In this document: positions 8,944 through 53,792 of the stretch, in pieces
How the letters are laid out: every line of letters starts with the position of its first letter
Position numbering within the stretch: the stretch's first letter is position 1
Virus record (IMG/VR): IMGVR_UViG_3300028786_000011
Span: 1 to 53,801 of that record
Reading direction: 5' to 3' (one strand)
Length of the DNA: 53,801 nucleotides
DNA from: a virus
Notes under the pieces: model-generated
The model's input: the letters and a program-made list of their open reading frames with translations, nothing else
Databases searched by the model: none
What the model was told of the DNA's origin: nothing
Position numbers and translations under genes: made by a program

Positions 8944-9599
8944 CAGGCCATCTCCACCACGCGCGCGTGAGTACGATCGAACTCGGCGACGACCTCGGCG
9001 TAGTACCGACGCGCGTGCAGAATCTTGTCGAAGATCGCCGCTTCCTTGTCCAGATCTCTGGCGAGGGACCAGGTCGTAACGCGCATGTACTCCGGGATGT
9101 GGTCGACGAAGTGCATCGTCTGCGGCTCATAGCCGATGAGGTGCTCCGGCGTGTTGACGAGGCAGTAGTTCACCTCCCATGCCTGCGCATCCCACAGTGC
9201 CATGTAGCCGCGCATCTGCCATTCGTAGATCTTGTCTTCGCAGTCGACGTTCGCGATCGGGAACGTGGCGACCGACCAAGATGCTTTGACGTCATGCCCC
9301 CGACGAGCGCCGGTGTCGAACAGATCGGCCTCGCCGGTGATGAAGTCGTTCGTCTTGCGCTCGGTGTTCTTGACCAGAGAAAGGCCACGCGTGCGGTTCA
9401 GCAACGCAATGGCGTCGCCCTCGACGATCTTTCCTTTCTCCATCTGCTTGCTTCCGACCTCGAAGTCGACGCCGAACACCTCTTGCGCGACGAGCTCGCG
9501 GATGTACGTCTTCGCGCCGACAGACAGGACTTCGGACTTCAGCTTTGGCTCGGTCATCAGTTTGCCGATCGACGAGCAGCGGAACTTGACGGCACTCAT
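8943..9599 (-). CDS. phage exonuclease, PD-(D/E)XK (lambda Exo/YqaJ type)
   Basis: The 218-aa protein contains the ordered motifs of a YqaJ/lambda-exonuclease nuclease: a conserved glutamate in KGKIVEGDAIALL, GEADLF, then HDVKASWS (the D-x-K pair), followed by a YEWQMRGYMAL helix. It should resect double-strand ends to give 3' single strands for the annealing protein encoded just upstream. The start at 9599 overlaps the erf stop (ATGA), implying coupled synthesis of the pair. Confidence 0.82.
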   Translation of the reverse strand: MSAVKFRCSSIGKLMTEPKLKSEVLSVGAKTYIRELVAQEVFGVDFEVGSKQMEKGKIVEGDAIALLNRTRGLSLVKNTERKTNDFITGEADLFDTGARRGHDVKASWSVATFPIANVDCEDKIYEWQMRGYMALWDAQAWEVNYCLVNTPEHLIGYEPQTMHFVDHIPEYMRVTTWSLARDLDKEAAIFDKILHARRYYAEVVAEFDRTHARVVEMA

Positions 9600-10357
9600 C
9601 GCGTAGCCCTCGCGTCTGCATCGGTCGCGACCTTGCGCATGCCGCCGAACTCCTTGGACCACTTGCCGCGCTGCTTTGCATTGAGTGAAGCCCACCACTT
9701 CGTCAGCGCATCGCTGCCCTGCATGCTGGCGTCGCGGCCGGCCTGAAGGAACTTCTCGTCCTCCTCGCTGGCGCCGGCCTTCTGCGTGTTGCCGTCGGTG
9801 TCGTCGCCTTGTTCGGCAACTCCGAGGACGGCCTTCAGGGTGTAGCGCTCCAGGAAGGTCTGTGTGCTGGCGCGAGCCTGCAGCGCGCTCTTGGCGCCGC
9901 CAACATCCGGGGGGCCACCCATCGACACGGATTCGAAGTAGCCGGCCGCATGCTTCAGCGTGCAGGTGATCTCGATCCAGTCCTTGTCGTCCTTGGTGAG
10001 CCTCCAGGACGTGGACAGCCCATGTTTGGACAGCGCGGGAGTGACCGCGTTGACGACCGCGAACAGTTCGGCGTACTTGCCGCCGGCGAGCGGGCCTTGT
10101 TGGACCGTCTTGTTCTTGATGATCACGACCGCTTCGGCCTTGAAGGCAGCGAACGCGACGTTGTAGAGCTTCTTCGCCTCGCGCTCTTCGTACTGGACCT
10201 GCATCGCCATGAGGCGCTCCAGGCGGTCCAGATCGGCGCCGCTGTCGATCGCGATGCGCAGAAGATCGGCGGGCGTGGTTCCGGTGGTGGAGACGGCGTA
10301 GCGCGGCTCGGCCTTCGGTTGCTCGACGAGTTCAAGAACTTGTGCTTCAGCGGTCAT
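9596..10357 (-). CDS. erf: Erf-family single-strand annealing protein
   Basis: Residues about 60-175 carry the ERF superfamily pattern: LYNVAFAAFKAEAVVI, KYAELFAVVNAVTPALSKHG, then the FESVSMGGPPDV region. The C-terminal part (from about 190) is a linker plus a basic WWASLNAKQRGKW helix. Erf rings anneal complementary strands and allow circularisation and recombination of phage DNA. GAAAGAG precedes the ATG. It pairs with the exonuclease gene downstream. Confidence 0.88.
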   Translation of the reverse strand: MTAEAQVLELVEQPKAEPRYAVSTTGTTPADLLRIAIDSGADLDRLERLMAMQVQYEEREAKKLYNVAFAAFKAEAVVIIKNKTVQQGPLAGGKYAELFAVVNAVTPALSKHGLSTSWRLTKDDKDWIEITCTLKHAAGYFESVSMGGPPDVGGAKSALQARASTQTFLERYTLKAVLGVAEQGDDTDGNTQKAGASEEDEKFLQAGRDASMQGSDALTKWWASLNAKQRGKWSKEFGGMRKVATDADARATR

Positions 10358-11301: not shown

Positions 11302-12558
11302 CTACGTGCTGAGCCTGATCGCTTCGACGGCGATACCCAGGTCGCGAGAATCCCCAATGGGATTGAAGAAGCTCGCGAGCCTGCTGGATTCGGCCGTGAT
11401 CTCCAGCACGGGCCCGCGCGCTGGCACCGTGATGCGTTCGCGCTGCCCGGACTTGAAGCGCATCGATGTGCGTCCCTCTCCGCATCTCAGCTCGACATCG
11501 CGAGCAGACAAGTGGTTGATCAGCTGCAGCTCGACAGCTTGCACGCCGGCCGGCACGGGGAACACGGCGCGGCCAGACGTCCAGCGATGAGTGCCCTCTG
11601 ACGCGTGCCACCCGCTGCCGCCGTGGGCTTCGAATAGGTACGGCGTCTGCATGCCGATGTCTTCGTCCAGTGGCGTCGGCGTGGCCATGTAGCACGCCCC
11701 GCGGCCGGTGACGGGGCAGGGACTGTGCGTCACCAGGAACCCGGAGCGCATCAACCGCTCGACGAAGTACGGGTGCTGGAAGCCCAGCTCGCACCAGCCG
11801 AACTTCCGCGTCGAGCGAACAGAGATGCCATCAAGTCGCGGCCCCCAAGGGAATGGCACGAATGAATTGCCTACCTCGACGATCGGCTCGCCGGCGAACA
11901 GGATGAAGCCGCCAGGCGCAAGCATGGGCCTGAGTTTTTCCAGCACCGCGGCATGGTCGAAGGCGTGGTGAAATGCTTCGAAGAACAGGATGCGATCGAA
12001 CTTGCGGTCGCGCACGGCGTCGCCGAACTGACCCTTCTGCAGCTCGATCTTGATCTGCAGGCTGTCGCACTGGGCCTGCACTGCCGCGAGGTAGCGTTCG
12101 TCGATGTCGACGATGGCGACTTCGCAGCCCATGCGAGCAAGCTGGATCGACAGCTGGCCTTCGCCGGCGCCGTACTCAAGCACGCTGGCGCCGGCGCGCA
12201 CGTCGAGGTTGCGCAGTATCCAGCCCCACGACAGCATGAAGTCTGCGACTGTGGCACTGTCGCCGTACTGGTAGGGCGTCGGAGCGGAGACGGCACGCGC
12301 CGTGTCCACATAGGGCGTGCGTTCGTTGACCCATGGGTCGTAGTCGGTCACCGCAGCCAGGTCGGAGTAGAGCCGCTTCGCTTCAGCCGCGTACTCCGGT
12401 GAGAACGGGTCCAGGCGCTGGAGCTCGGGCGTTCTGGGGTTGTCGGCATACACGCCGCACATCGTGCGGGCTGCTTCGAATGCGGGTTGAGTTTGTTCGG
12501 CCTGCTCGCAGTAGGCCAGCAGGGCATCCACGCTCTGCAACTTGATGGGTTCGGTCAC
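11302..12558 (-). CDS. SAM-dependent methyltransferase in the rex position
   Basis: A 418-aa protein with a GTG start. Residues about 120-235 form a class I methyltransferase domain: motif I VLEYGAGEGQLSIQLA, acidic loop VAIVDID, then ILFFEAFHHAFDH and a GGFILFAGEP strand. The last ~130 residues look like a beta-sandwich (AVELQLINHLSARDVELR). The closest style is methyltransferases acting on surface glycans, but the substrate is unknown. It lies downstream of the repressor gene with no terminator between, and ends at a strong terminator, so it should be made in the lysogen. Lambda has rexAB here. Confidence 0.75.
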   Translation of the reverse strand: MTEPIKLQSVDALLAYCEQAEQTQPAFEAARTMCGVYADNPRTPELQRLDPFSPEYAAEAKRLYSDLAAVTDYDPWVNERTPYVDTARAVSAPTPYQYGDSATVADFMLSWGWILRNLDVRAGASVLEYGAGEGQLSIQLARMGCEVAIVDIDERYLAAVQAQCDSLQIKIELQKGQFGDAVRDRKFDRILFFEAFHHAFDHAAVLEKLRPMLAPGGFILFAGEPIVEVGNSFVPFPWGPRLDGISVRSTRKFGWCELGFQHPYFVERLMRSGFLVTHSPCPVTGRGACYMATPTPLDEDIGMQTPYLFEAHGGSGWHASEGTHRWTSGRAVFPVPAGVQAVELQLINHLSARDVELRCGEGRTSMRFKSGQRERITVPARGPVLEITAESSRLASFFNPIGDSRDLGIAVEAIRLST

Positions 12559-12821: not shown

Positions 12822-13399
12822 TTGGCCCTCCGTCCGCGCTGCACGGGGGCCGGTGGAGGGAGGAGGGTGTCACGCGGCTCGATCGGTGCCGCTGGCTCAG
12901 CTTGCGCGGAAATCCGCGGTGCCGGTGGCGGCACCATGTGCTCAGATATTTCGTCTGGGATCGGTGAGGCTCGGGAGGGCTTGACCGCTCGAAACAAGTG
13001 CTCGGCATGCTTGCGCATCAGCGTCGCGCGCTCCGAGACCTCCTTCCTGTAGCGCGCACGTTCCTCTGGCAGCAGTGCATTCAAATCTTCGATGAACTGG
13101 CGTTCTTCTGCTGTGAGCTGCTGCGCCTCCTGGAGGCTGGGCGCTTTAAGCGGCGCGGGCGTGTAGTGCATGCCGGCACTGGATTCTCCGAGCTTGGGCG
13201 GCATCTGCAGCGCGAGCAGCGCATCGGCGGATGTACCCATCGCGCGGGCCAGGGCGGCCATGTAGCGCGGCTGCTTGGTCTTGCCGCTCTCCAACTGCTG
13301 GATCTTCTGGTAGGCGATGCCGACTCGCTGAGCAAGTTCGAGCTGCGTCAGGCCCGAGGCCTTTCGCCAAATCTTGACCAGTTCTCCAAGTGATTCCAT
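12818..13399 (-). CDS. CI-like HTH (XRE) repressor, 193 aa
   Basis: Residues 5-65 are an XRE helix-turn-helix domain: LVKIWRKASGLTQLELAQRV, GIAYQKIQQLESGKT and a TSADALLAL end. The remainder is a helical segment (about 95-145) and a Pro-rich tail. There is no S24/LexA-type peptidase, so RecA-driven self-cleavage is not expected and induction must work another way. I took the ATG at 13399, which abuts the first operator; the longer frame runs through the operators. Position opposite a Cro-like gene and between two operator clusters identifies it as the phage repressor. Confidence 0.85.
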   Translation of the reverse strand: MESLGELVKIWRKASGLTQLELAQRVGIAYQKIQQLESGKTKQPRYMAALARAMGTSADALLALQMPPKLGESSAGMHYTPAPLKAPSLQEAQQLTAEERQFIEDLNALLPEERARYRKEVSERATLMRKHAEHLFRAVKPSRASPIPDEISEHMVPPPAPRISAQAEPAAPIEPRDTLLPPPAPVQRGRRAK

Positions 13400-13462
13400 G
13401 CAAATGATTTTGCTGGACTTGCGAACAAGATCATTTGTGCCGTAAACTACAAACATTCTTGT
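13400..13462. promoter_or_regulatory. OR: three repressor operators and divergent promoters
   Basis: Three 14-bp dyads lie 25 and 24 bp apart: GCAAATGATTTTGC (13400-13413), ACAAGATCATTTGT (13425-13438) and ACAAACATTCTTGT (13449-13462). All fit RCAA-N6-TTGY, as do the two OL sites. A plausible PR has TTGCGA (13419-13424), an 18-base spacer holding the middle operator, and TAAACT (13443-13448). I could not place PRM with confidence. The first operator abuts the repressor start codon, which suggests autoregulation. Confidence 0.7.
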
Positions 13463-13477
13463 TTTTGGCGCACGATC

Positions 13478-13741
13478 ATGACCCCACTCGAAGCCCTTCT
13501 GAAAGCCGTTGAGGTTCTCGGGAGTCAGAAGGCAGTCGCAGCGGCGGCCGGCGAAAACCTCGCCACGGGCCACGTCTATTACTGGCTGACCAAGGCTCCG
13601 GAGGTGCCAGCGCAGTACTGCCCGGGGATCGAACGGGCTACGCGTGCCAAGGGCGAAACGGTCTTCTGCGAGCAGCTCTGTCCGGGGACGGACTGGAGCG
13701 CAGTGCGAACCCAAGACGGCCCCGCTCTGCAGGTTGCCTGA
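13478..13741 (+). CDS. cro: Cro-like YdaS-family regulator
   Basis: The 87-aa product reads MTPLEALLKAVEVLGSQKA, then GHVYYWLTKAPEVPAQYC and PGIERATRAKGETVFCEQL, ending TDWSAVR. This is the YdaS/Cro layout: a helix-turn-helix with the YYWL recognition region followed by a PAEYCP-like segment. It is the first gene rightward from PR and divergent from the repressor gene, so it should bind the same operators to commit to lytic growth. Confidence 0.85.
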   Translation: MTPLEALLKAVEVLGSQKAVAAAAGENLATGHVYYWLTKAPEVPAQYCPGIERATRAKGETVFCEQLCPGTDWSAVRTQDGPALQVA

Positions 13742-13913
13742 GTCATGCGCCCTCACAGCCTCAACCCCGCGTTGATGAGCCGGTACAGCTTCCGGAGCAG
13801 ATCGGCTACGGCCTTGGCGGCCCATGTGTCGTTTGATTCCATGGCTGCATCGTCTTTTTTTTGGCCATTAGGGCCAACCCTAGCAAGCCCTAGAACCTAG
13901 GAGCGCTCAGGAA

Positions 13914-14291
13914 ATGAACTCCGGACGCCTCTTCTACGAGGACGAATTCGACGCGCTGCAGGCCATGATCGGCGAGAGCGGGAAGGGCTTCAAAGCGTGC
14001 GCCTTGCACCTGTGGCCCGAGATGAAAGCCGAGAGCGCATACGCCAAGCTGAAGGACTGCGTAGACCCCAAGGGCAGCGAGAAGCTGAAGTTCAGCCAGG
14101 TGCTGCTGCTCATGAAGTTCTGCGAGCGCTACGACCCGCTGCTGTACGCGTGCGACGAGACGCTGCACGCACGCCCCGATCGGAAGACGGTCGACGACGA
14201 GTCGGTCAAGCTGGTCGAGACGATCAACTCGGCGGCGCACGTTCTGAGCAAGGCCATGGCGCAGCTCGAGCGGTTGAGGGCGTCGACATGA
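13914..14291 (+). CDS. CII-like phage regulatory protein
   Basis: The 125-aa protein starts MNSGRLFYEDEFDALQ, then GKGFKACALHLWPEMK and SAYAKLKDCVDPKGSEKL, followed by SQVLLLMKFCERYDPL. That is the arrangement of the phage regulatory CII family: a helix-turn-helix that treats the phage genome as lambda CII does. The position between cro and O-like genes agrees. The 172 bases before it contain a GGCC hairpin after eight T but no gene I can support. Confidence 0.65.
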   Translation: MNSGRLFYEDEFDALQAMIGESGKGFKACALHLWPEMKAESAYAKLKDCVDPKGSEKLKFSQVLLLMKFCERYDPLLYACDETLHARPDRKTVDDESVKLVETINSAAHVLSKAMAQLERLRAST

Positions 14292-14313
14292 AGTTCGCCG
14301 GGGTGACCGCGTA

Positions 14314-15150
14314 ATGGCCGGCGACTGGATCAAGATGCGCAACGACCTGCCGGATGATCCGGCAGTGATCGCGATCGCGTCGAAGCTTGACATCGACGAG
14401 TTCTCAGTCATCGGCCGGCTACATGCGCTGTGGGCGTGGGCTGACGAGCAGTCACGCGATGGTCACGCAAGCGGCGTGACACAAAAGTGGCTTGACCGAA
14501 AAGTCCAGTGTGACGGATTCGCCGCTGCGCTGGTTTCGGTGAAGTGGCTCGAGGTCACCCCGGAAGGCCTGACGATTCCAAACTTCGAGAATCACAACGG
14601 CGAAACAGCGAAGGTTCGGGCACTCGGTACGAGGAGAAAACAGCGCCAGCGCGCGAATCCTAGGGTTGAAATTGTCCCGCCAGTTGTCCCTGCTGTGTCC
14701 AGCGAAGAGTCACGCGTCAGGCGTGACAAAAGCGAGACCAGAGAAGAGAAGAGAAGAGAAGAGATAAGAGATACAGACGCTATCGCGTCTGCTGCGGCGA
14801 AAACGCCGCGCGCATCCAGGAAGTGCCCGAATGGATTCGAGCCTACGGAACCGGATGCGTGGATCGCAGCAAACGCACCCGGTGTCGACTGGAAACGCGA
14901 GACCGAAATCTTTCGGGACCACACGTTCAAGAACGCCATCAGCGATTGGAACGGCTGCTGGCGCAACTGGATGCGCAAGGCTGCGCCAGCGACCGCACAG
15001 CGTGGATTCATGACCGCCAAGGAGCGCGACACGGCCAACGCCGCCGAGTGGGTGCGCAAGAGCACTGGCGGCCTTCTGGACCGCGCTTTCCCCTCAGAGA
15101 ACGTCATCGACATGGAGGCGCCGCATGCCGCTCAAATCGGAAACCGTTGA
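14314..15150 (+). CDS. O-like phage replication initiator
   Basis: The 278-aa protein has an N-terminal winged-helix-like part (MAGDWIKMRNDLPDDPAVIA, then FSVIGRLHALWAWADEQS and LTIPNFENHNG), a highly charged linker (about 105-160) and a DnaT-like C-terminal segment (CPNGFEPTEPDAWIA to NWMRKAA). This is the layout of phage initiator or helicase-loader partners. The coding sequence itself holds repeated GTCACGC dyads and a purine tract, as the lambda O gene contains the origin. The P-like gene overlaps its end by 26 bases. Confidence 0.7.
   Translation: MAGDWIKMRNDLPDDPAVIAIASKLDIDEFSVIGRLHALWAWADEQSRDGHASGVTQKWLDRKVQCDGFAAALVSVKWLEVTPEGLTIPNFENHNGETAKVRALGTRRKQRQRANPRVEIVPPVVPAVSSEESRVRRDKSETREEKRREEIRDTDAIASAAAKTPRASRKCPNGFEPTEPDAWIAANAPGVDWKRETEIFRDHTFKNAISDWNGCWRNWMRKAAPATAQRGFMTAKERDTANAAEWVRKSTGGLLDRAFPSENVIDMEAPHAAQIGNR
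14451..14770. repeat. ori: dyad iterons and purine tract, candidate replication origin
   Basis: GTCACGC occurs at 14451-14457, 14462-14468 and 14709-14715, and its complement GCGTGAC at 14474-14480 and 14721-14727. Two of these pairs form the identical 19-bp dyad GTCACGC-N5-GCGTGAC, each followed by an AAAAG run. Then 14741-14760 is four exact copies of GAGAA, within an all-purine stretch ending near 14770 apart from one T. Iterons plus an asymmetric strand-bias tract inside an initiator gene are what a lambda-type origin looks like. Confidence 0.45.
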
Positions 15151-15661
15151 CTGGATCTTTGCCCGCATGCTGGTGCGCTACGGGGCCTCGTGGGTCGCGA
15201 AGTGGAATGGTGTACCGATGGAGGCTGTCGCTGCAGACTGGGCGCACGAGCTCGAGCGCGTGCCGCGGGATTCGATCCTGTACGCGCTCGGCTATCTGCC
15301 GCTCGAGTTTCCGCCGACCGTGGCGCAGTTCAAGGCGATCTGCCAGCGAGCGCCGGAACCAAAGGTGCTCGCGATTCGCGATGAGGTGAAAGCCGACAAA
15401 GCCAAGGTCGACGCAATCGTGGGCACGCTGAAAGAGCGCTTGGCAGCGCGCCATCGCCTGCAGTGGGCGCATGACCTGGCGGCGCGAGAGAAGCGCGGCG
15501 AACCCCTTACGCCGGTCCAGGCCGCCGCATGGCGCGAAGCCCTGAACAAAGTGCCGATGAGCAATGGTGGCCTGTACACCCCGATCGATCCGAAATGCCT
15601 GCCGCCAGCGATGCGGCCTGCCACCGAAACCACGATGGAGTGGGACCATGCAGAAGCCTGA
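15125..15661 (+). CDS. P-like replication protein (helicase loader)
   Basis: The 178-aa product includes VDWIFARMLVRYGASW, AADWAHELERVPRDSILYAL, and the LEFPPTVAQFKAICQRAP box that is characteristic of lambda P-type replication proteins. A long basic helix follows (TLKERLAARHRLQWAHDL). Such proteins bring the host DnaB helicase to the origin complex. It overlaps the O-like gene, as O and P do in lambda. Confidence 0.78.
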   Translation: MPLKSETVDWIFARMLVRYGASWVAKWNGVPMEAVAADWAHELERVPRDSILYALGYLPLEFPPTVAQFKAICQRAPEPKVLAIRDEVKADKAKVDAIVGTLKERLAARHRLQWAHDLAAREKRGEPLTPVQAAAWREALNKVPMSNGGLYTPIDPKCLPPAMRPATETTMEWDHAEA

Positions 15662-16453: not shown

Positions 16454-16659
16454 GCAAGAACCCGACAGAACCTGATTTCCTCAGCAAGCAGTGTCCGCCC
16501 TGCAATGGCGATTGCACTCAAGGGAAGGCCTGTAACGCCTACCCCAAGCCCGACCCGCTGCCTGAGGCTGTCAGCGATCTCGAGTTTGTCTGCTGGGTCG
16601 GCATTGCGTTCCTGGCGCTGTGCGCGCTCGGCTCGTGCGTCTTCGGGAGCAAGGTGTGA
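16450..16659 (+). CDS. small Cys-motif membrane protein, 69 aa, GTG start
   Basis: The GTG at 16450 overlaps the preceding stop (GTGA). The N-terminal half has a QCPPCNGDCTQGKACNA cysteine cluster, the second half one transmembrane helix (EFVCWVGIAFLALCALGSC). This combination suggests an inner-membrane protein with a metal-binding or disulfide head. Unknown role. Confidence 0.6.
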   Translation: MSKNPTEPDFLSKQCPPCNGDCTQGKACNAYPKPDPLPEAVSDLEFVCWVGIAFLALCALGSCVFGSKV

Positions 16660-17099
16660 TCACGCTTGCGATCGATCCGGGAACGACCGAGAGCGGCTGG
16701 GTTCTTTACGACGCCGGCAAGGTGCTCGACAGCGGCATCGGCGACAACCACGACGTGCTGCGCTGGGTGCAGGCGGGGCAGGGCGCGGAGGTGCTCGCGA
16801 TCGAGATGATCGCGAACATGGGCATGGCCGTCGGCACCAGCACCTTCACGACTGTGCGATGGATCGGCAGGTTCCAGCAGGCCTGGCGCGAGCCTGAGGC
16901 CGTGCGGTTCATCTTCCGGCACCAAGTCAAGCAGCACCTGTGCGGGACGCAGAAGGCGAAGGACCCGAACATCCGGCAAGCGTTGATTGATCTGCTCGGG
17001 CCGCAGGGCAACAAACGCCAACCTGGACCGACATACGGCGTCAAGAGCCACGCATGGTCCGCCCTCGCCGTGGCGGTGACGGCCGGGAGCGTTGCGTGA
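16656..17099 (+). CDS. RuvC-like Holliday-junction resolvase
   Basis: The 147-aa GTG-start product has the RNase H-fold resolvase signature: ITLAIDPGTTESGWVLYD (first catalytic Asp), VLAIEMIANMGMAVG (Glu in strand 4) and a C-terminal TYGVKSHAWSALAVAV helix with the family His/Asp region. Phage RuvC homologues cut four-way junctions to resolve recombined or branched DNA before packaging. It fits the Erf/exonuclease recombination system. The start overlaps the previous stop. Confidence 0.82.
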   Translation: MITLAIDPGTTESGWVLYDAGKVLDSGIGDNHDVLRWVQAGQGAEVLAIEMIANMGMAVGTSTFTTVRWIGRFQQAWREPEAVRFIFRHQVKQHLCGTQKAKDPNIRQALIDLLGPQGNKRQPGPTYGVKSHAWSALAVAVTAGSVA

Positions 17100-17630: not shown

Positions 17631-18473
17631 ATGCGCAGCATCCTCGTCACGGGCGGTTCGGGCTACTTTGGCCACGGCTTCGTCCGTGCCGCACTTGATC
17701 GAGGTGCTGAACGTGTCTGCGTGTTCTCGCGCGGCGAGTACCAGCAGTCTCTGATGCGCAAGGAGTTCAACGATGACTCGCGGCTTCGGTGGCTCATCGG
17801 AGACGTGAGAGACGCCAACCGCCTCGAAGAAGCGTTTGAGGGAATCGGCTTGGTCGTCCATGCTGCAGCCCTCAAGCGCATCGAGGTGGGGTTCTACAAC
17901 CCGGACGAGATGTTCGCCACCAACATCGACGGCACACGCAACGTGATCCGCGCGGCGAAGCGCGCAGGCGTGCGAAAGGTCATTGGCCTGTCCTCCGACA
18001 AGGCCTTCGAACCGTGCAGCGCCTACGGCATCAGCAAGGCCGGCGCCGAGTGCCTGATGCTGGCCGCGAACAACACACGCGGCGCGTCGGGGCCGATCTT
18101 TGCTGCGGTGCGCTACGGCAACGTCTGGAACAGCACCGGCTCGATCGTGCCGACTTGGCGCGCGCGCATCGCCAACGGCGGGGCTGACCTGCCGGTGACC
18201 GACCCGGACTGCACGCGCTTCTTCATGCGGCGCGACGAAGCGGTCGACCTGGTGCTGAAGACGGCCGAGACCATGCGCGGCGGCGAGCTGGCGATCCCCG
18301 CACTGCCAGCGTTCCGTGTGGGCGACCTCGCCGAAGCATTCGGTTTGCCGATGTCGGAGATGGGCTTGTCCGCTTTCGAGAAGAAGCATGAATCAATGGG
18401 CCACGGAAACAGCAGCGACCGCGCGCGGCGCATGTCGGTGGCCGAACTGCAGGAGGCGCTTTGTGAAGCATGA
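17631..18473 (+). CDS. pseB: PseB-like UDP-GlcNAc 4,6-dehydratase
   Basis: A 280-aa short-chain dehydrogenase-type sugar enzyme. TGGSGYFG (7-14) is the NAD(P)-binding loop. SSDKAFEPCSAYGISK (121-136) supplies D123, K124, Y132 and K136 at the spacing of inverting dehydratases of the FlaA1/PseB group. RYGNVWNSTGS (161-171) and CTRFFMR also follow that group. The family removes water from UDP-GlcNAc to give a 4-keto-6-deoxy sugar, the first pseudaminic acid step. It is shorter than typical PseB (about 330 aa). It starts five bases after the preceding gene and overlaps the aminotransferase. Confidence 0.82.
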   Translation: MRSILVTGGSGYFGHGFVRAALDRGAERVCVFSRGEYQQSLMRKEFNDDSRLRWLIGDVRDANRLEEAFEGIGLVVHAAALKRIEVGFYNPDEMFATNIDGTRNVIRAAKRAGVRKVIGLSSDKAFEPCSAYGISKAGAECLMLAANNTRGASGPIFAAVRYGNVWNSTGSIVPTWRARIANGGADLPVTDPDCTRFFMRRDEAVDLVLKTAETMRGGELAIPALPAFRVGDLAEAFGLPMSEMGLSAFEKKHESMGHGNSSDRARRMSVAELQEALCEA

Positions 18474-19122
18474 CGAGCCAAAGTGGCCGCGGTGGATTGC
18501 GAAGCCACACGACGTGACTCGTGCATTTGAGGACGCCTTGTGCGAGTACACAGGCGCTCGATTCGCGGTGACAACAACTTCGTGCACCCAGGCGATCCTC
18601 ATGGCGCTGGCGTGGCATCGGCAGACAACGCACTTCGAGTCCCCTTACATCAGCGTCTCGATGCCGCGTCTGTCCTACGTCGGCGTGCCGGCTGCCATCC
18701 TGAACGCTGGCTATCGCCGCGTGAACTTCCGTGATGAGGACTGGCAGGGAGAGTACGAGTTCGGCGAGGATGGCGCCGGCGTCTGGGATTCGGCTCGCCG
18801 CTTCACCAGTGGCATGTACCGCTCCGGTGCGATGCAGTGCATCTCCTTCCACGCCGCCAAGGTGCTCGCCGACACCCAGGGCGGCGCCATCCTCCACGAC
18901 AACCCCGAAGCCGATGCATGGCTGCGCCGCGCGCGCTTCGACGGCCGCACCGAAGGCGTCGACCCGAAGGACGATCAGGTTCAGCTCCCTTCGTGGCACG
19001 CCTACCTGAGCCCCGATGTAGCCGCGCGGCTGCTGTGGCGTCTTCCTGCGCTGCCCAAGCACAACCCGGATCTGCCGAGGTCCGACTACCCCGATCTTTC
19101 AACGATGAAGGCCTTTCAATGA
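18463..19122 (+). CDS. minimal DegT/PseC-like aminotransferase, 219 aa
   Basis: GTG at 18463 with AGGAGG 6 bases upstream. The product has the PLP-domain elements of DegT/DnrJ/EryC1 enzymes: an ARFAVTTTSCTQAILMAL start, D109 in VWDSARRF, and the Schiff-base lysine K133 in CISFHAAKVLADTQGGAI. It lacks the C-terminal domain; family members are about 370-390 aa. It may be a reduced functional enzyme or inactive. In the pathway it would aminate the 4-keto sugar made by the neighbouring dehydratase, which is inferred from context. Confidence 0.7.
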   Translation: MKHDEPKWPRWIAKPHDVTRAFEDALCEYTGARFAVTTTSCTQAILMALAWHRQTTHFESPYISVSMPRLSYVGVPAAILNAGYRRVNFRDEDWQGEYEFGEDGAGVWDSARRFTSGMYRSGAMQCISFHAAKVLADTQGGAILHDNPEADAWLRRARFDGRTEGVDPKDDQVQLPSWHAYLSPDVAARLLWRLPALPKHNPDLPRSDYPDLSTMKAFQ

Positions 19123-19280
19123 ACATCCATGCCCCCGAAAGACAGCCAGGAGAAACGCAGGCCGAGTACCGTCAACGTCGGGCTCGATCACACGCGGCAG
19201 TCGAAATCGCCATTGGTGGCAAAGCACCGAATGTGCTGGACCGCCTTCGCAAGGCGTTCATGAAAATCGCAGCGAAATGA
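19119..19280 (+). CDS. small basic phage protein, 53 aa
   Basis: Starts MNIHAPERQPGETQAEY in ATGA overlap with the aminotransferase gene and ends NVLDRLRKAFMKIAAK, a basic helix. It interrupts the sugar genes but is overlapped on both sides, so it is translated within the same operon. Unknown function. Confidence 0.55.
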   Translation: MNIHAPERQPGETQAEYRQRRARSHAAVEIAIGGKAPNVLDRLRKAFMKIAAK

Positions 19281-19657
19281 GCAATCCCCTCGAGGGCCGC
19301 GAGTTCCGCAGCGACCTGGACATGCAAGTCGTCGCGCGAGACAAGGCCGTCTTCCTGCTGTTCAGCCGCACCGCGAACGACTCCGGCGAGAAAGTCCCCG
19401 CGCTGACCGACAACATGGTCCTGGCACCGGAGACTGCCCTGATGGCATCTCAGGCCCTGGCAGACATGGCGTACGAAGCCGACGACGGTTTGAAGATGCC
19501 CCAAGCCGCGAAACTCGCGATGGTCGAGAAGCATCGTGCCGTGTTGCTCCCGCGGCTGACCGTGATGCTGAACAGCCTCAGGGAGAACAAGGTGGTCGGC
19601 AACGAGCAGCTGGCCCGCCAAGCGCTTGACGCCTTCTGCGCTGAGGTCTTCTCGTGA
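19277..19657 (+). CDS. hypothetical phage protein, 126 aa
   Basis: Starts MSNPLEGREFRSDLDMQ, with a strand-rich N-terminus (VVARDKAVFLLFSRTAND) and a helical remainder (LMASQALADMAYEADDGL). Four-base overlaps on both sides. I see no sugar-enzyme motif; it looks like an ordinary phage gene between pathway genes. Confidence 0.58.
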   Translation: MSNPLEGREFRSDLDMQVVARDKAVFLLFSRTANDSGEKVPALTDNMVLAPETALMASQALADMAYEADDGLKMPQAAKLAMVEKHRAVLLPRLTVMLNSLRENKVVGNEQLARQALDAFCAEVFS

Positions 19658-20232
19658 CCCTCCCGCGCCGCACGGCCATCATCCCCGCAAGAGGTGGAAG
19701 CCAGCGCATCCCCCGGAAGAACATCAAGCCGTTCTTCGGCAAGCCGATCATCTGCTACAGCATCGAGACCGCTCGCGCCTCGGGCCTGTTCAACCTGATC
19801 CTGGTCAGCACCGACGACGACGAGATCGAGGAGATCGCACTCGCCGCCGGCGCGGTGGTGATGCGCCGCAAGTACGACGACGGCACCCAGGGTACCCAGG
19901 AGGTAGCGCAGAAGGTGCTGGAGCAGATGCCCGATGTCAAGACGGCCTGCGTGATCTACGCGACGTGCCCGCTCCTGGCCCCCCGAGACCTCGCTGCCGG
20001 CCTCGTCGCGCTGGGCTACCCCAACAAGCAGTTCGCCATGTCGGTTGATCCGAACGGCAGGGACGCGGGATGCTTCTACTGGGGCAAGGCGGACGCCTTC
20101 CGCGATGACCTGAAGCTGGACGCGCCGCACACCGCACGTGTCGAACTGCCGGCGAGTCGGGTTTGCGACATCAATTTTCCGAGCGACTGGGCTCGGGCCG
20201 AATCCATGTACCAAGCCTTGAGGAGGGCATAG
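19654..20232 (+). CDS. pseF: PseF/NeuA-like CMP-nonulosonate cytidylyltransferase
   Basis: GTG start at 19654. The CTP-binding signature IIPARGGSQRIPRKNI (9-24) is that of PseF/NeuA/NeuN enzymes. YATCPLL (102-108), AMSVDPNGRDAG and the closing CDINFPSDWARAESMY (171-186) follow PseF, where the end is D-x-x-x-x-x-DW. The enzyme would activate the nonulosonic acid with CTP to CMP-sugar, the donor for transferases. At 192 aa it is shorter than the usual ~230 aa. A homing endonuclease gene follows immediately. Confidence 0.85.
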   Translation: MTLPRRTAIIPARGGSQRIPRKNIKPFFGKPIICYSIETARASGLFNLILVSTDDDEIEEIALAAGAVVMRRKYDDGTQGTQEVAQKVLEQMPDVKTACVIYATCPLLAPRDLAAGLVALGYPNKQFAMSVDPNGRDAGCFYWGKADAFRDDLKLDAPHTARVELPASRVCDINFPSDWARAESMYQALRRA

Positions 20233-53452: not shown

Positions 53453-53675
53453 CCATCCGCCGCAGTACCTGCGCCCGGCGGGCACGAACACCGGCATGCC
53501 CTACGTGGTGTTCGAGATCCGCAAGTCCGTGCTGCGCATCTTCCACGCCAAGCACATCGGCGAGGCGATCCTGGTCAAGGCGGAGTGGGAGCGGGGCGTC
53601 TATGAGCAGTCGCCGGGGCGCAAGCGGAAACTGCCGAGCAAGTCAGCGGAACCGCCCGCAAGTACTGGATATTAG
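53445..53675 (+). CDS. last prophage gene, hypothetical, 76 aa
   Basis: Starts MSDHPPQYLRPAGTNTGMPY and contains VVFEIRKSVLRIFHAKHIGE, then a basic Arg/Lys/Ser-rich tail. Its last codons and TAG stop lie inside the right att repeat (stop at 53673-53675), so integration defines its C-terminus. Role unknown. Confidence 0.6.
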   Translation: MSDHPPQYLRPAGTNTGMPYVVFEIRKSVLRIFHAKHIGEAILVKAEWERGVYEQSPGRKRKLPSKSAEPPASTGY

Positions 53676-53792
53676 GTAGCGCCAAATACCTACCTAATAT
53701 GAACCACAAAAAGTTAGGGGCCGCTCACTGGCGGCCCCTAGTATTTCTGGCTCCCCGACCTGGGCTCGAACCAGGGACCTACGGATTAACAG
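53667..53792. repeat. attR: attR: right copy of 126-bp attachment repeat
   Basis: The copy is identical to 1-126, including the inverted repeat (53669-53700), terminator and tRNA 3' part. Here it continues into the rest of the tRNA 5' half (tccggcgct to the window end), so this is the junction that restores the intact tRNA gene. Confidence 0.93.
53708..53739 (-). terminator. tRNA-Asn Rho-independent terminator, right copy
   Basis: This is the copy of the hairpin plus T run described at 42-73, directly downstream of the reconstituted tRNA-Asn on the minus strand. Confidence 0.8.

Follow-up and report, generated by a model that had tools for sequence, protein, structure and literature searches.

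A putative phage replication origin built of paired dyads and a purine tract inside the gene of its own initiator

The window analysed here is a stretch of 53,801 nucleotides of viral DNA (IMG/VR record IMGVR_UViG_3300028786_000011). Its region from 14451 to about 14795 is very probably a phage replication origin that lies inside the gene of its own initiator. Covariation between protein and DNA strongly supports the view that this initiator reads the half-sites embedded in its gene. The original prediction had placed an origin within an O-like gene at this locus. That proposal is supported by DNA conservation beyond coding, covariation of the dyad arms, covariation of a protein helix with them, a fixed distance to a purine tract and the assignment of the protein to a replication-initiation family. 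The coordinates of the features are given in Table 1.

Table 1. Features of the putative origin, its initiator gene and the adjoining gene (window coordinates)
Feature	Position	Strand	Evidence or remark
Initiator gene, 278 aa	14314..15150	+	phrog_2509 profile match and AlphaFold2 model
Extra half-site GTCACGC	14451..14457	+	Exact match; 11 bp upstream of dyad 1
Dyad 1, GTCACGC-N5-GCGTGAC	14462..14480	+	Gene nt 149-167, codons 50-56
Basic helix, codons 99-114, proposed half-site reader	14608..14655	+	Arm-class prediction
Dyad 2, GTCACGC-N5-GCGTGAC	14709..14727	+	Encoded in the linker
Degenerate half-site GCGAGAC, one mismatch	14732..14738	-	Exactly 11 bp past the right arm of dyad 2
Homopurine tract, (GAGAA)n; strand-opening/loading element proposed	14740..14764	+	Sole such run of the window
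Hairpin CAGACGC-TATC-GCGTCTG	14774..14791	+	Folding z = -4.3 as ssDNA
Following gene (178 aa), at the place of a helicase loader; overlaps the initiator gene	15125..15661	+	phrog_1524, unknown function

Five GTCACGC half-sites were confirmed at 14451 (+), 14462 (+), 14474 (-), 14709 (+) and 14721 (-), spanning 277 bp. Four of them form two 19-bp dyads, 247 bp apart, which had been described as identical. The positions and the arms agreed with that description; the 5-bp spacers differ (AAGCG and GTCAG), and the identity is therefore limited to the arms. A sixth, degenerate half-site had been overlooked. It lies in the 11-bp phase used by the relatives, which often have an intact half-site where the window has GCGAGAC, with their purine tract 1 bp after it. 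The original prediction took an equal frequency of GTCACGC elsewhere as an argument against an origin. By raw count the word was indeed no more frequent than expected, with 17 copies in the whole window versus 17.8 expected; thus GTCACGC is not enriched as a word, and its clustering into dyads alone is unusual. Among all 7-mers of the window, five copies in 280 bp were matched otherwise only by GC-rich low-complexity words. The pattern GTCACGC-N5-GCGTGAC occurred only at the two dyads in the 53.8-kb record, and none of 5000 synonymous-codon shuffles of the window gene produced a repeated perfect dyad. We saw no second half-site cluster outside the initiator gene in the window.

The ORF carrying these sites matched the profile of phrog_2509, 'replication initiation protein', over residues 1-250 (E=1.3e-57). 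Its relatives include proteins of epsilon15, Xanthomonas phage CP2 and the Rac phage of E. coli 442/2. In the AlphaFold2 model, residues 16-94 formed a winged-helix-like domain and residues 99-114 a long basic helix; a low-confidence linker (about 115-170), predicted to be disordered, led to a helical domain at the C-terminus. Within the N-terminal domain, the core had pLDDT >90. Dyad 2 and the tract are encoded in this presumably disordered linker, so the protein could tolerate DNA-imposed codons there. A Pfam search matched no family, RepA_N included. Profile comparison with PDB chains gave nothing at E up to 0.1, and Foldseek of the model against the PDB gave nothing at E <=0.001. When structures were re-aligned, 5kbj, 4pql and 4pt7, which we take to be RepA_N-type plasmid initiators, came top with a weak Z of about 5, and CRP-type winged helices tied with them (Z 4.9 versus 5.0). 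BLASTP detected no similarity to lambda O (best E=3.8). The label 'O-like' thus holds for function and gene position and not, by sequence similarity, for ancestry. Our search of open-licence papers found no origin linked to the phrog_2509 initiator family.

IMG/VR, GTDB genomes and phage records yielded 239 relatives, 167 of them non-redundant; they were drawn by the peptide MAGDWIK with the 80 best hits per scan, so the sample is not random. In 94 of the 167, one and the same perfect dyad occurred twice within the first 600 nt of the gene, 60 nt or more apart, versus a mean of 0.28 genes and a maximum of 2 in synonymous-codon shuffles. The other 73 failed this strict test, and many of them still had repeated half-sites. 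Four arm classes were distinguished among the relatives: GTAACGC, GTCCGCA, GTCACGC and GTAGACG. Both dyads of one gene share the arm word, the word varies between genes and phages, and the left and right arms change together across the classes. In the near sisters L059 (GTCACG) and L263 (GTAACG), for example, the word differs at both dyads together. The classes nevertheless follow the tree: on a tree built from few columns, arm class changed 10 times, versus 65 times with shuffled labels.

The layout was also shared. Most GTCACGC and GTAACGC relatives have the first dyad at gene nt 149, as in the window; it lies at 66 in the GTCCGCA class and near 142-154 in the GTAGACG class. The second dyad lies at about gene nt 340-410. 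A half-site at gene nt 138, the place of the extra half-site of the window, was found in 18 of 29 GTCACG-class relatives. Half-sites in the relatives are spaced in 11-bp phase and occur in both orientations, with unpaired ones beside the dyads. We also scanned IMG/VR blind with GTCACGC-N5-GCGTGAC alone as the query, counting two dyads with six-base arms. Among the viral contigs returned, 24 had two dyads about 200-285 bp apart; these in part are, or are near copies of, the collected homologues and so are not all independent. The N-terminus of the family was encoded upstream in 19 of the 24, and the other five had no start within reach. In 17 of these contigs, dyad 2 and the tract motif began exactly 34 bp apart, the spacing found in the window.

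We then compared arm class with the protein sequence after removal of close relatives, with identity over the remainder of the N-terminal domain capped at 45% or 40%. Residues 101-114, within the basic helix, predicted arm class with an accuracy of 72% and 78% at the two limits, respectively. Other 14-residue windows that did not reach into the helix gave 5-29%, and shuffled labels gave 32% on average and 42% at most. Residues 105 and 109 alone reached 68%, and their codons overlapped half-sites in 2 and 0 cases of 827. T105 and V109 occurred only in the GTAACG class; all 41 members of the GTCCGC class had D or E105 with K109; and all nine of the GTAGAC class had K105, Q109 and W112, including two away from the main GTAGAC clade. 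This pattern is what a recognition helix would show, and the predictive power of the helix alone points to the initiator as the reader of the half-sites. Part of the association could reflect linkage by recombination, as dyad 2 lies near the helix codons; yet dyad 1, which precedes these codons by more than 130 nt, has the same class in most genes. An independent-pairs test of residue against class found two pairs on supported branches and had no power.

The dyads might instead be operators through which the protein or a repressor controls transcription of the replication operon, with the origin elsewhere. Dyads with identical arms are typical of operators, and genes for a repressor and a YdaS-like regulator lie immediately upstream of the initiator gene. 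We nevertheless consider this improbable, because the sites lie deep within the coding region, their spacing to the purine tract is fixed, their arm class tracks a helix of the initiator itself, and no other gene start in the window had a half-site cluster nearby. It is very improbable that the dyads work as DNA or RNA hairpins, that is, as transcript structure or single-strand initiation sites, rather than as protein sites. Both fold well as single strands, but half-sites that lack a partner also stand alongside them, phased by 11 bp and in either orientation; pairing would be needed only within a dyad, yet one word is common to both, and that word correlates with a basic protein helix.

The purine tract next to dyad 2 was as first described, with four GAGAA units (14741-14760) and a single T (14765). 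Apart from its run up to 14764, the window has no pure purine or pyrimidine run of 16 or more, and the 40 bp at 14735-14775 are 60% AT, in the top 0.2% of this 64% GC window. A (GAGAA)n-type tract was found in 148 of the 167 relatives, starting in most of them 1 or 12 bp past the last half-site, and AT content past the tract start was 64%, versus about 44%. A first codon test of the tract was dropped as circular, an all-purine tract admitting only AGA or AGG, and was replaced by one in which the charged linker was defined on the protein only. In linkers so defined, AGA made up 92% of the Arg codons, versus 9.6% in the remainder of the genes and 10.7% for charged runs in other ORFs, indicating that the tract is constrained, or generated, as DNA. 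It is hardly credible that the dyads and the purine repeat are by-products of the protein sequence (a G-H-A-x-G-V-T motif and a charged REEKR linker): dyad 1 does encode a conserved peptide and the tract gives a charged linker in any frame, but this reading is contradicted by the shuffles that left the protein unchanged (0.28 versus 94 genes), and the AGA bias, the position of dyad 2 in a non-conserved linker and arms that switch together across classes speak against it.

A further element, the hairpin after the tract, had been overlooked. Perfect stems of at least 7 within 75 nt past the tract occurred in 31% of 151 genes, versus 5.9% in synonymous shuffles and 2.7% further downstream. Hairpins at this place, e.g. 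in L025, L028, L262 and L316, vary in their stems, and their loops are often TAAC, TGAC, TAAA or TATC.

The tract extended beyond this family. A blind search of IMG/VR with the exact 23-bp GAGAA pattern found 93 loci, 69 of which had the family N-terminal domain in the same ORF. Twenty distinct non-family loci were tested, and 13 matched PHROG replication initiation or primosomal families. Repeats upstream of the tract in these non-family initiators were visible by eye in several; only 3 of 20 reached p<=0.05 in a shuffle test, so they are suggestive only. In open-licence papers, a weak basis for a negative, we found no prior description of a GAGAA tract as a phage origin element.

Exchange of the upstream part was seen in the Rac prophage gene ydaU. 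In Rac phage 442/2, ydaU has the family N-terminal domain, GTAACGC dyads and the purine tract. It shares only nt 428-789 with ydaU of K-12 Rac, at about 86% identity; the border of the shared part is the end of the tract, and the DNA-binding domain, repeats and tract upstream all differ. Unlike the window family, K-12 ydaU (L366:920-1777) has a DUF1376 N-terminal domain and other repeats, namely its own TGTTCAAACA, present three times in the linker upstream of the border. An origin of the Rac prophage, oriJ, is active but kept repressed (PMC3945230). The three copies of TGTTCAAACA are a candidate core for oriJ; our literature search found no source locating oriJ within ydaU. The window resembles Rac further in having a ydaS-like gene upstream of the initiator. 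The exchange between 442/2 and K-12 resembles the chimeric initiator of plasmid pPR9, in which joint replacement of the N-terminal domain and the origin gave a hybrid that replicates (PMC5703833). It is possible, although somewhat doubtful, that the (GAGAA)n tract is an origin element common to phage initiators with unrelated DNA-binding domains, serving as a standard strand-opening or helicase-loading sequence. On the same tentative reading, initiator-specific repeats would be attached to the tract and exchanged as cassettes, and a hairpin with a TAAC, TGAC, TAAA or TATC loop would follow.

Several known origins offer parallels. The lambda ori lies inside the initiator gene O, its iterons are 19-bp imperfect inverted repeats, and an adjacent AT-rich segment is needed for opening (PMC7466680). 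The window likewise has its 19-bp repeats inside the initiator ORF. Unlike the contiguous array of four lambda iterons, these are two separated dyads with phased half-sites, and the GAGAA tract stands in place of the AT-rich sequence. The 40 bp past lambda iteron 4 are 75% purine, and GAGAAGAG was absent from lambda O. RepA_N initiators (pSK41) have a winged-helix N-terminal domain, an origin in the linker and a separate C-terminal domain (PMC5703833). Dyad 2 and the tract of the window similarly fall in the linker between the DNA-binding and C-terminal domains; dyad 1, however, lies in codons of the DNA-binding domain, and the initiator belongs to a phage replication module. SPP1 oriL lies in gene 38, an initiator gene that carries repeats of its own together with an AT-rich region for unwinding (PMC6316719), but SPP1 has direct repeats and a second origin outside the gene, whereas the window has dyads and only one cluster was seen in it. 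The putative origin of the window is best read as lambda-like or RepA_N-like in its working, with a different initiator family and layout.

GC skew, which the original prediction had put forward as a check, showed no switch at 14.5 kb and neither supports nor contradicts an origin. AT skew showed no clear switch at the site, and a sigma-70 promoter scan of 13300-15300 found nothing.

On the evidence of sequence and model, the initiator would bind the GTCACGC half-sites, probably as one dimer per dyad, through its winged-helix domain and helix 99-114. Protein bound at the two dyads and at the phased half-sites may then join into a single looped complex. From its position, composition and conservation, the AT-richer purine tract (14740-14771) would be opened, leaving strand-asymmetric ssDNA. 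Recruitment of the host replicative helicase would fall to the C-terminal domain together with the next gene's product, and the hairpin may aid loading or priming. The product of the next gene had no similarity to lambda P by BLASTP. Relatives have at this position a gene that is DnaC-like or encodes an ATP-binding protein. On a circular Pusillimonas record that includes phage structural genes, a gene for an ATP-binding protein follows the initiator; this is consistent with a replicon without proving one.

The surroundings of the replication region held further features. It is flanked by an ERF-family recombinase (9596-10357, -) and a Holliday junction resolvase family match (16620-17099, +). 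A 418-aa methyltransferase-domain protein is encoded at 11302-12558 (-), between the recombination genes and the repressor. In the early region, 17631-20232 (+) encodes a Polysacc_synt_2 dehydratase (E=1.7e-68), a DegT/DnrJ aminotransferase and a cytidylyltransferase; the gene order is like that for pseudaminic or legionaminic acid synthesis and may relate to modification of a surface or virion glycan. At least 80 bases of the window start (1-80) recur near its end (53667-53746), not as an exact prefix-suffix overlap, and contain two inverted repeats; they could be attachment-site or imperfect terminal repeats.

If the origin reading is true, the specificity between origin and initiator would be readable directly from sequence for the phrog_2509 family, which we found in phages and genomes of Pseudomonadota, Planctomycetota and Verrucomicrobiota. 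The four natural half-site words and their helix sequences would constitute a testable recognition code and possibly a source of orthogonal phage replicons. The tract, kept as DNA within coding sequence and met again, by blind search, in other initiator families, may reveal an unnamed common step in origin opening.
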